A DNA stretch of 64,000 bases from Halosolutus amylolyticus (lineage in GTDB: Archaea; Halobacteriota; Halobacteria; Halobacteriales; Natrialbaceae): the NCBI RefSeq assembly GCF_023566055.1, contig NZ_JALIQP010000005.1, forward strand, positions 1 to 64,000, written 5' to 3'. This document shows, piece by piece, positions 17,924-21,891 of this stretch; position 1 is the stretch's first letter; every line of letters begins with the position of its first letter. The position numbers and the translations under genes are program-made. The notes below the pieces were generated by a model. That model worked only from the letters and a program-made list of their open reading frames with translations, was not told the origin of the DNA and made no database searches.

Positions 17924-17962
17924 CTTTAAGTGCTTCTGGTCACAAGGTGAAGATACGACGGG
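17924..17962 (+). repeat. 39-bp interspersed repeat, copy 1
   Basis: First of six copies of a 39-bp sequence with the core CTTTAAGTGCTTCTGGTCAC then AAGGTGAAG and TACGACGGG. It contains a small dyad TCAC-AAG-GTGA. Copy 2 starts 112 bp downstream. Each copy begins with a TTTAAG/TTTACG box. Confidence 0.85.
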
Positions 17963-18035
17963 AGATCGCGGCTTCTCCGGATGCTATCCTACGGAGCGAC
18001 AGCGTCGTTTCCGATCGGGCCGGCCACCGATCGCT

Positions 18036-18074
18036 CTTTAAGTGCTTCTGGTCACAAGGTGGAGCTACGAAGGG
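18036..18074 (+). repeat. 39-bp interspersed repeat, copy 2
   Basis: This copy differs from copy 1 at three positions (GTGGAGCTACGAAGGG at its 3' half). It continues into GCTTTTCGG, as does copy 6, whereas the other copies continue GAG. It lies 63 bp before the nucleotidyltransferase start. Confidence 0.85.
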
Positions 18075-18136
18075 CTTTTCGGAGCGACGATCGAACTGGA
18101 CAGCCGGCGCTCCGCCGGTCGATCGATGGTCCATTC

Positions 18137-19057
18137 ATGACGTCCGTCCCACAGCAGGTTCACGAGACCGTCGCGGCACACCTGGACGCGATCGAGCGCC
18201 GCCACGACGTCACTGTCGCCTTCGCGGCCGCTCGCGGGAGCCACGCCTGGGGTGCGGCCGCTCCGGACAGCGACTACGACGTCGGGTTCGTCTTCGTGCC
18301 GACCGATCTGCGGGTCTACGTTCACCTCGACGGTCCGGACGACGTCATCACGTCCGATCGCGGCGAGTTCGAGTATCAGGGCTGGGACGTCCGGACTGTC
18401 GCCTCCCTGCTCGCGGACTCCAACGACGGCGCGATCGACCTGCTCCGGAGTCCGATCCGGTACCGGTCCGCGTACGACCCCGACGACCTTCGCGCGTACG
18501 TCGAGCGGACGTACAACCCGATCGACCTCTATCACGCCTGGCGCGGCATCGCGATGAGCAACTACCGGAAGTATCTCTCCGACCACCTGGTTCGTACCGA
18601 CGACGCGATTTTTCCGATCGTCGAGGAGCGCGACGACGAGTACGTCGTCGAGACGGACGACGGACCGACGACGATCGATCGGGACGACGACCGATACGCC
18701 CAAACGCGGACGCGGCCGACGGTGAAGCGAAACCTCACGATCTGTCGGGCGGCGATGTCGGCCCGCTACCTGAAAGCGACCGGCGAGCGCGGGGGACACG
18801 ACCTGCCGGCACTCGACGTCGGTCGGTTCCTGACGGAACAGGCACCGGCCGTCTTCGACGAGGATCGAATCGCCCTCGCGACGGACCTGCTCGAACGAAA
18901 ACGACGCGGCGAGGGTGCGGCGACGATCGGCGACGCCGTCGGCCGCGAGTTCGCACGCCCGCCGAGGGAGATCGACCCCGCGATCCACGCGCGCGACGGC
19001 CCCGATCACGATCGACTTGACGCGTTCGTCGACGAGATGATCGGGGCGGTCCAGTGA
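18137..19057 (+). CDS. RlaP/YcgL-type predicted nucleotidyltransferase
   Basis: This 306-aa protein resembles the DNA polymerase beta-superfamily nucleotidyltransferases of the RlaP/YcgL family (COG3541). GSHAWG at residues 34-39 and DSDYD at 44-48 form the active-site GS...DxD pattern, with acidic residues of the partner strand near FEYQGWDVRT. RlaP proteins are linked to RNA ligase/repair operons in bacteria, but here no ligase is adjacent. The gene sits inside the 39-bp repeat array, with copies 1-2 upstream and copies 3-6 downstream. The ATG at 18137 is used because upstream in-frame sequence consists of repeat DNA. Confidence 0.82.
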   Translation: MTSVPQQVHETVAAHLDAIERRHDVTVAFAAARGSHAWGAAAPDSDYDVGFVFVPTDLRVYVHLDGPDDVITSDRGEFEYQGWDVRTVASLLADSNDGAIDLLRSPIRYRSAYDPDDLRAYVERTYNPIDLYHAWRGIAMSNYRKYLSDHLVRTDDAIFPIVEERDDEYVVETDDGPTTIDRDDDRYAQTRTRPTVKRNLTICRAAMSARYLKATGERGGHDLPALDVGRFLTEQAPAVFDEDRIALATDLLERKRRGEGAATIGDAVGREFARPPREIDPAIHARDGPDHDRLDAFVDEMIGAVQ

Positions 19058-19079
19058 TCGAACGGTCGAGGTCGGCCCC

Positions 19080-19118
19080 CTTTAAGTGCTTCTGGTAACA
19101 AGGTGGAGCTATGACGGG
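19080..19118 (+). repeat. 39-bp interspersed repeat, copy 3
   Basis: It begins 22 bp after the nucleotidyltransferase stop codon. It has TGGTAACAAGG instead of TGGTCACAAGG and ends CTATGACGGG. An ATG lies 30-31 nt after its TTTAAG box and would encode only 14 codons. Confidence 0.85.
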
Positions 19119-19221
19119 AGAGACGGCAGTTCTCACTGACTCGCTTTTCGACTAGCCACGGTTTTCTCACGCCAGATAGCGCCCTCGTCGTCGATTCCGG
19201 TCCGGTTCGAACACGATCGTC

Positions 19222-19260
19222 CTTTACGTACTTCTGGTCACAAGGTGAAGATACGACGGG
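19222..19260 (+). repeat. 39-bp interspersed repeat, copy 4
   Basis: TTTACGTACTTC variant of the box, otherwise close to copy 1. It starts 142 bp after copy 3. DNA between the copies is not conserved and has no recognisable gene. Confidence 0.85.
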
Positions 19261-19406
19261 AGAGTCGGTCGTTCTCGTGGTCTCACCGCTCGACCAGCGA
19301 CGCCGATCGCGCTCCCGGCACGTCGGCCACTTCGTCGCCGAGGCCGGGCCAGTTCGGGGCCAGTTCGGATCGAATTCGTCCACCGAGTCCGTTCGGGTCG
19401 ATCCGT

Positions 19407-19445
19407 CTTTAAGTGCTTCTAGTCACAAGGTAGAGCTATGACGGG
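19407..19445 (+). repeat. 39-bp interspersed repeat, copy 5
   Basis: Variant with TCTAGTCACAAGGTAGAG. It starts 185 bp after copy 4. The ATG within it opens a 37-codon frame that ends inside copy 6; no protein family is recognised. Confidence 0.85.
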
Positions 19446-19527
19446 AGGACGGCGATTCTGGGGGATTCTTCGATCCGTAGCGACTGGACCGTTCCACGTG
19501 GCCGAGGCCGGCCAGTTCCCGATCGGC

Positions 19528-19566
19528 CTTTACGTACTTCTGGTCACAAGGTGAAGCTATGAAGGG
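19528..19566 (+). repeat. 39-bp interspersed repeat, copy 6
   Basis: TTTACGTACTTC variant, continuing into GCTTTTCGG like copy 2. It starts 121 bp after copy 5 and is the last copy before the RNA polymerase epsilon gene. Confidence 0.85.
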
Positions 19567-19762
19567 CTTTTCGGCACACTCGATTCGGAAGCGACAGCCT
19601 CGCGTCCGGACCGCGTAATCGTCTGCGCGCGGTTGCGCGATTCTCGTGATCGCGGTCCGCGCGATCGGCACGAAGACGTATCACGAGGACTGTCAGTCCC
19701 GTCTAGAGGTCCGGGAAAACGAGCGAGCCTTTTTCCGTCTCCCTGTCCGAGCGGAACACGAG

Positions 19763-20497
19763 ATGCAATACGACGGTGCCGACCCCGGGGCGGGCGGTGA
19801 GCAAGCGGTGGCCGTCGGTGAGGACTCCGACCGCCGTCTCGAGATGCGTCCCGGCTCCGGGTCGCTCTCGCGAGCGGAGGTCCAGCGGGACTCGACAGTC
19901 CGTCGATGGGGCGTCGTCACGCCGAGCGCGACCGTCATCGGGCGCGCGGAGTCGTCCGACGCGGATCTCTCCGAGAGTATCCGGCGACTCCACGACGAGC
20001 AGCACGGCGCGACGCCGGGGTACAGCGAACGCGCTCACCACCTCGATCGACTCCGGACGACCCAGGCGCTGTGTAACGCGCTCGATCTGACGCCGTGGCA
20101 GCGGGACCTCGCGCTGGGCGTGATGGACGAAATCGACCTCACGGAGTTCGGCAGCCAGCGGGCCATTCCGAAGGTCGCGCTGGTGGTGATCCGCCACGTC
20201 GTCGACGTCGATCGCCAGCGGTACTTCGGCCTCGACGACATCGACGCGCAGGCGCTCTCGCCCGATCGGATGGACGACCTGTTCGGTCAGTACCGCGCCC
20301 ACGACATCACCGAGGAGACGGCGTTCAGGCGGCTCGCGGCCGAGTACGGGCTCGACACGACGAGCCTGAACCGGCTCCGACGCGTGCTGAAGGCCCAGCT
20401 CGAGGACGACCTTCCGGCCTACGGGCGGAACCCGTACCGGGATCCGAACCTCCCTGAATCGACGGGCGGCGATGCGACCGAACCCGAAGAGACGTAA
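19763..20497 (+). CDS. Haloarchaeal 'DNA-directed RNA polymerase subunit epsilon' protein
   Basis: This protein of about 244 aa matches the haloarchaeal family annotated as RNA polymerase subunit epsilon: RRWGVVTPSATVIGRAE, IRRLHDEQHGATPGYSERAHHLDRLRTTQALCNAL, then a cyclin-like helical stretch (QRAIPKVALVVIRHVVDVDRQRYF). Its biochemical role in transcription is poorly defined. The start is uncertain: ATGs at 19763 and 19844 are both in frame, and family similarity begins only after the second, so residues 1-27 may be untranslated. Confidence 0.75.
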   Translation: MQYDGADPGAGGEQAVAVGEDSDRRLEMRPGSGSLSRAEVQRDSTVRRWGVVTPSATVIGRAESSDADLSESIRRLHDEQHGATPGYSERAHHLDRLRTTQALCNALDLTPWQRDLALGVMDEIDLTEFGSQRAIPKVALVVIRHVVDVDRQRYFGLDDIDAQALSPDRMDDLFGQYRAHDITEETAFRRLAAEYGLDTTSLNRLRRVLKAQLEDDLPAYGRNPYRDPNLPESTGGDATEPEET

Positions 20498-21147: not shown

Positions 21148-21255
21148 GTGGGATGCGGATCGACACTCGGCCCGGCACGATCCGCCAGCCTGACTGGCCC
21201 CCGTTCGTTCGTTCGAGGAGTGTCACTTTTGTCGCCAGCGCCGCTACTACCCGCC

Positions 21256-21891
21256 ATGGTTTCGACCTCTTCGGACTCCGAGTCGCTCGTACTCTACGCC
21301 GACTACGTCTGTCCGTTCTGTTACCTTGGGAAGCGATCGCTCGAACAGTATCGCGAGAGCCGCGACGAGCCGCTCGCGATCGACTGGCGGCCGTTCGACC
21401 TCCGGCGCGGGAAGCGCAGGCCGGACGGCTCGATCGACCACGACGTCGACGACGGGAAAGACGAGGACTACTTCGCGCAGGCGCGGGAGAACGTCCGTCG
21501 ACTCCAGGACGAGTACGGCGTCGAGATGGCCCAGGAGATCGCGGTCGAAGTCGACTCGCTGCCGGCCCAGCAGGCCTCGTGGTACGTCGAGAACACTTAC
21601 CCCAGGGAGTGGGCCGACTTCGACGCGGCGATCTACGAGGCGCTCTGGCAGGACGGCCGCGACATCGGCGACGTCGAGGTGCTGGCCGACCTGGCCGCGG
21701 ACGTCGGACTGCCCGTGGACGAAATCCGGGACGCGATCGACGACGACGGACTCCGGGCGGAACTCGAGGAGCGCTTCGACGCGGCACGGGAGCAACGCAT
21801 CACCGGCGTCCCGACGTTCGTCTACGAGGGGCAGGCCGCCCGCGGCGCGGTACCGCCGGCCCAGCTCGAGCGACTGATCGACGGAACGTGA
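21256..21891 (+). CDS. DsbA-family (FrnE-like) thiol oxidoreductase
   Basis: This 211-aa cytoplasmic protein has a thioredoxin fold with an inserted helical domain, as in FrnE/2-hydroxychromene isomerase-like DsbA proteins. The redox motif CPFC is at residues 19-22 and the cis-Pro loop is GVPTFVYEG. There is no signal peptide. The ATG at 21256 gives a normal N-terminus. The substrate is unknown; a role in disulfide handling or oxidative stress is plausible. Confidence 0.85.
   Translation: MVSTSSDSESLVLYADYVCPFCYLGKRSLEQYRESRDEPLAIDWRPFDLRRGKRRPDGSIDHDVDDGKDEDYFAQARENVRRLQDEYGVEMAQEIAVEVDSLPAQQASWYVENTYPREWADFDAAIYEALWQDGRDIGDVEVLADLAADVGLPVDEIRDAIDDDGLRAELEERFDAAREQRITGVPTFVYEGQAARGAVPPAQLERLIDGT

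Follow-up and report, generated by a model that had tools for sequence, protein, structure and literature searches.

On sequence evidence, the partner of the six-copy repeat array at 17924–19566 of the window (the whole 64,000-nucleotide stretch of Halosolutus amylolyticus DNA analysed here) is the haloarchaeal RNA polymerase subunit epsilon, rather than the RlaP nucleotidyltransferase that the array surrounds. The repeats belong to a sequence family that is co-distributed with epsilon among Halobacteria, keeps its position and strand beside genes of the epsilon family, and is independent of RlaP. They are best read as epsilon-linked promoters, and they probably depend on epsilon. We give about even chances to the full reading, in which a promoter-like element of haloarchaea that belongs with epsilon has expanded locally to form the array, and the copies are core promoters lacking a B recognition element (BRE), whose sequence epsilon, or polymerase carrying it, would recognise or need. 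No description of the element–epsilon link was found in the literature searched, and its absence there is no proof of novelty.

The array and its neighbouring genes

All six copies lie at the positions originally given and on the forward strand. Their starts are 112, 1044, 142, 185 and 121 bp apart, and the wide gap holds the nucleotidyltransferase gene, between copies 2 and 3. The features of the region are as follows.

17924–17962, + strand: element copy 1, GACGGGAG type, with no gene directly downstream
17995–18002, + strand: second motif AGCGACAG, downstream of copy 1
18036–18074, + strand: element copy 2, GAAGGGC type; the RlaP start lies ~100 bp downstream
18137–19057, + strand: RlaP nucleotidyltransferase gene (PF10127), 306 aa, by profile match
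19080–19118, + strand: element copy 3, immediately past the RlaP stop
19154–19161, + strand: second motif AGCCACGG, downstream of copy 3
19222–19260, + strand: element copy 4, box TTTACGT
19407–19445, + strand: element copy 5
19479–19486, + strand: second motif AGCGACTG, downstream of copy 5
19528–19566, + strand: element copy 6, GAAGGGC type, box TTTACGT; the epsilon start lies 235 bp downstream
19590–19597, + strand: second motif AGCGACAG, downstream of copy 6
19763–20497, + strand: rpoeps homolog (haloarchaeal RNA polymerase subunit epsilon), 244 aa, the element’s constant partner

Mean pairwise identity among the six copies is 0.85 across positions −5 to +39 of the box (~44 bp) and 0.28–0.33 outside that block, confirming that the intervening DNA is unconserved. 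A degenerate pattern searched across the whole 4.59 Mb genome with ≤3 mismatches returned exactly six matches, all in the array, and the reversed-pattern control returned none; the repeat is therefore not a genome-wide one. The box is exactly CTTTAAGT in four of the six copies and TTTACGT in the other two. Copies 1, 3, 4 and 5 have GACGGGAG-TTCT in the start region, unlike copies 2 and 6, the copies nearest RlaP and epsilon, which have the variant start GAAGGGC-TTTTCG in common. The second motif is clear after copies 1, 3, 5 and 6, slightly changed after copy 4 (AGCGACGC), and present solely in altered form at copy 2. A TCAC/GTGA dyad, which had been proposed as part of every copy, is complete in three of the six and does not define the element, since position 25 is A in 40% of 202 copies from many genomes.

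The product of 19763–20497 is 59–62% identical to annotated epsilon proteins over 84–96% of the length (E ~6e-72 or better), and its homologs in named records are annotated as DNA-directed RNA polymerase subunit epsilon. Orthologs are strongly conserved (~53–94% identity). First described in 1983, epsilon is an additional part of the halobacterial polymerase that permits transcription of native DNA; it was purified as a polymerase component, with co-purification and this activity known for Halobacterium only, and a 2021 review calls its biological relevance “enigmatic” (PMC8305020). For epsilon, nothing of significance came from Pfam, NCBIfam or solved structures by sequence search, and no match to a DNA-binding family was detectable. 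Its AlphaFold model is poor (pLDDT 53.5) and yielded no structural match at Z ≥5, a result of little weight; an hhalign comparison of thin profiles with the archaeal TFB core gave a probability of 1.6%. Phage records and viral contigs contained no epsilon gene.

Distribution of the element across Halobacteria

The aligned copies give the consensus YYC-TTTAAGT-[GA]-N-YTCT-[GC]G-NN-AYAAGG-NNNAG-[AC]TA-[CT]GA-[CA]GGGA, and a 31-base pattern allowing ≤3 mismatches finds the element in 136 of 391 Halobacteria genomes with no control matches. From the genome collection 57 named stretches were taken, and further ones came from plasmids. The strict pattern had no matches in viruses; 24 viral matches obtained with a looser pattern, nearly all in AT-rich viral contigs, were read as chance.

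Presence was called with a more general pattern of the upstream half, with one mismatch allowed (~5 matches overall in the reversed control). By this measure elements occur in 163 of the 391 genomes, and strong epsilon homologs (E below 1e-30) occur in 160. The two are found together in 158 genomes, epsilon alone in 2, the element alone in 5, and neither in 226 (Fisher P 7e-101, with shared ancestry ignored). Presence and absence of the two shift jointly inside genus g6 and inside several families, a pattern that takes several independent events of joint gain or loss to explain. In three of the genomes with the element alone (G068, G270 and G336) there is a distant epsilon paralog (28–35% identity) with a single element just downstream on the same strand, and the more diverged elements of G279 and G384 are laid out in the same way beside a distant epsilon paralog. 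Among the other exceptions, the G354 genome is 87% complete, and the single match in G352 is at control level. Part of this co-distribution arises because the epsilon locus is home to most elements, and a genome that loses it loses both. Elements elsewhere in epsilon-bearing genomes, together with nothing above control in epsilon-free ones, argue that the link is functional too.

In most families, across ~130 epsilon loci, the nearest element lies ~95–280 bp upstream of epsilon on the same strand. This position holds in families with and without RlaP, and a tandem array is frequent. Some loci have a further element just after the gene, on either strand, and a few epsilon genes have no upstream element (L137, L142). 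Divergent epsilon genes are paired with a matching divergent version of the element, for example CTTTAAGTGGTTCTCGTCACAACGGTCTATAGTAAGCGGA, upstream of them. Epsilon is also the most widely shared neighbour of the array, at 44 loci, including families without RlaP in the array. Three or four epsilon paralogs are present in certain genomes of family f8 (G256, G250); in G256 an element precedes every paralog, and for two of them another lies just downstream (L149, L150, L151). On plasmid pSTJ003 of Halobacterium hubeiense, an upstream element accompanies a distant epsilon-like gene (L355 627–3124; NZ_LN831305.1 98626–101123), near plasmid-borne genes for a TATA-box-binding protein and a PadR regulator.

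Element-bearing genomes hold about 1 to 15 elements. Those away from epsilon precede or face mixed neighbours, as judged from annotation or from open reading frames read by eye, including sfsA, a pyrimidine-dimer glycosylase gene, a hisG-like gene and a methyltransferase-like gene; a single functional theme for these elements was rejected on account of this mixture. Several elements face convergent genes within ~60–170 bp, which points to short non-coding transcripts. One plasmid bears a four-copy array ~4.5 kb upstream of epsilon (L154 555–1080, the same region as L027), with strong G+C-rich hairpins directly past the start region in every unit.

As first proposed, RlaP is encoded between copies 2 and 3 (PF10127, E 4e-31). 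The expectation that array and RlaP co-occur was borne out in part: RlaP lies within the array in most genomes of the window’s family, Natrialbaceae, and in 28 loci fetched, but away from the array RlaP is not accompanied by the repeat: 19 RlaP genes distant from epsilon in element-carrying genomes have no element within ~2 kb. RlaP and the element are found together in 86 genomes, RlaP alone in 16 and the element alone in 77. Copies without a link to the gene they surround were to count against the original prediction; such a lack of linkage holds for RlaP but not for epsilon. In arrays of the Halobacterium group (L208–L214), a DsbA-like oxidoreductase gene, read from sequence, replaces RlaP. 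A gene similar to it lies downstream of epsilon in the window, at 21148–21891. The proposal that the array encodes a set of short RNAs on which RlaP acts can point to the 28 loci with RlaP inside the array, but it must contend with RlaP genes that lack elements, with the same kind of arrays flanking a DsbA-like gene, and with the absence of RlaP from 77 of the 163 element genomes, nearly all of which have epsilon. We consider it very improbable. The RlaP link is, by these comparisons, real but incidental.

Promoter-like architecture and rival explanations

The box TTTA[AC]GT is invariant, and strong conservation reaches ~+10. Every window copy has a TATA-like TTTA, and the distance from box to start region fits that of the class I repeats of halovirus HF2. 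The usual haloarchaeal BRE is CGAAA (PMC4983044); it is absent immediately upstream of the box, where pyrimidines rather than A directly precede (A frequencies of 1%, 1% and 5% at the three preceding positions). The element looks like a core promoter of an unusual kind that has no BRE, in keeping with the earlier impression that each copy looks like a haloarchaeal core promoter. The similarly built class I repeats of HF2, with the same box, are experimentally proven promoters with mapped starts that need the TATA box and initiator and not the BRE, and in Haloferax volcanii they work with no viral factor supplied (PMC8707807). The architecture alone therefore does not call for a special factor, which speaks against a need for epsilon, as do the lack of a DNA-binding family match for epsilon and the few epsilon genes with no element upstream. 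From this likeness (same box, mapped starts, BRE unneeded) we infer that the element copies are promoters that epsilon-carrying polymerase uses or needs, their exact start base being uncertain by a few bases.

Each copy would accordingly be a core promoter without a BRE, with TTTAAGT at about −27 and conservation to ~+10, and epsilon, or the polymerase carrying it, would recognise or need the element to initiate. Copy 6 would drive epsilon itself (autoregulation) and copy 2 would drive RlaP, while the remaining copies would drive short transcripts with UUCU and AGCGAC motifs. Epsilon would in this way gain its own small promoter set, about 1 to 15 per genome, somewhat in the manner of an alternative sigma factor. 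An epsilon-linked promoter class with autoregulation appears the most likely function of the element.

The second motif, AGCgaCggCtct, is found with 204 of 249 copies, mostly 32–50 bases past the assumed start, and has a log-likelihood of 516 versus 166–176 in shuffled sets. It lies outside the core promoter, and initiation alone does not explain its presence, which counts against the promoter reading. A set of structured RNAs found no support in the window’s family, where folding energies match those of dinucleotide shuffles (mean z ~0) and no consensus fold emerged; RNAalifold, applied to groups of orthologs, and a duplex test by partner swapping found nothing. No RNA structure follows the elements of Halobacterium. 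Rfam gave no match within the window array, and among related loci one chance-level match below the cut-off and no family at it.

At least two other lineages do show structured RNA. Hairpins in genus g77 have z −2.2 in 6 units. In a distant epsilon subfamily, epsilon-III, a hairpin RNA with compensatory changes comes after the element; of its 19 predicted pairs, 6 have both partners altered. In the alignment 95% of cells are paired versus 84% when shuffled, and its covariation score is 0.387 versus 0.209 shuffled and 0.04–0.12 slid, values from sequences that fall in few clades and are not independent. We regard this hairpin as a candidate new RNA family and an RNA role in some lineages as plausible. 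The element with its hairpin lies 53–140 bp after the epsilon-III stop at L325 1339–1448 (−), L327 2203–2312, L332 1258–1367 (−), L336 2218–2327 and relatives.

These observations bear differently on the rival explanations. Were the elements an operator array, they would be binding sites through which epsilon, as a repressor or titratable regulator, or some other regulator controls epsilon and its neighbours with no role in initiation. Tandem copies upstream of the same gene in an autoregulatory position would suit this account, as would the fact that positions −5 to +39 are conserved throughout, beyond basal promoter elements. Yet the conserved block stops close to where transcription would start, as a promoter does, many of the elements distant from epsilon have no same-strand gene after them, and a regulator other than epsilon would have to match its distribution; we judge an operator array unlikely. 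Somewhat less likely still is that each copy combines a promoter with a short non-coding RNA, bearing UUCU and AGCGAC, that acts on epsilon or RNA polymerase somewhat in the manner of bacterial 6S RNA. The second conserved motif does fall inside the presumed transcript, several elements face nearby convergent genes, and structured RNA occurs in genus g77 and, with covariation, in the epsilon-III subfamily. Against this, motif spacing is variable, copies 2 and 6 lie upstream of genes, and RNA structure is missing from the window’s family and from Halobacterium.

It is highly doubtful that the array is the remnant of a REP-like mobile element with its own gene, epsilon being a former recombinase and the elements its ends. 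Copies on both sides of epsilon in some genomes and scattered solo copies would fit such an origin, but inverted ends, a conserved spacer and a match to a transposase family are all absent, the elements keep their orientation and their place beside epsilon across families, and epsilon was purified as a polymerase component (PMC8305020). The promoter reading, if confirmed, would describe a promoter class set by an accessory polymerase subunit and not by TBP/TFB variants. An element that tracks epsilon across hundreds of genomes, and lies beside the epsilon gene itself and beside distant paralogs, is a concrete candidate target for epsilon, and the link turns the old question of epsilon’s role into a directly testable one.

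Relation to known systems

The closest known counterparts of the element are the HF2 class I intergenic repeats, which are 56–58 bp long, have the same box and are conserved from box to start region; a dispensable BRE and several copies per genome are further shared traits (PMC8707807). They differ in being viral, whereas the window element is cellular, and in a middle part that has CGTCTNNTAGAG and no YTCTNGNNAYAANG. This gamma motif, CGTCTNNTAGAG, is absent from all six window copies, and no AGCGAC motif is reported for the HF2 repeats (PMC8707807).

The window gene at 19763–20497 is homologous to Halobacterium rpoeps (OE_1279R) and ~60% identical to NCBI-named epsilon proteins; for OE_1279R, the literature found describes neither a regulon nor a promoter element that goes with it. 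RlaP, encoded between copies 2 and 3, is a member of the RlaP (PF10127) RNA-repair polymerase beta family, whose loci do not generally have the array.

In bacteria, alternative sigma factors are accessory subunits with their own recurring promoter sequence, and 6S RNA is a polymerase-binding RNA. The likeness that we see by analogy is that a recurring promoter sequence, perhaps along with small RNAs, goes with one accessory subunit of the polymerase; the proteins are unrelated to epsilon, and both factor dependence and a polymerase-binding RNA are hypothetical for the window. Epsilon and the element RNAs could form a paired module on the archaeal polymerase, epsilon directing it to its own promoters and the RNAs, structured in epsilon-III, feeding back on epsilon or the polymerase. 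We hold this to be rather unlikely; if true, such a module would be an archaeal counterpart to an alternative sigma factor plus 6S RNA.
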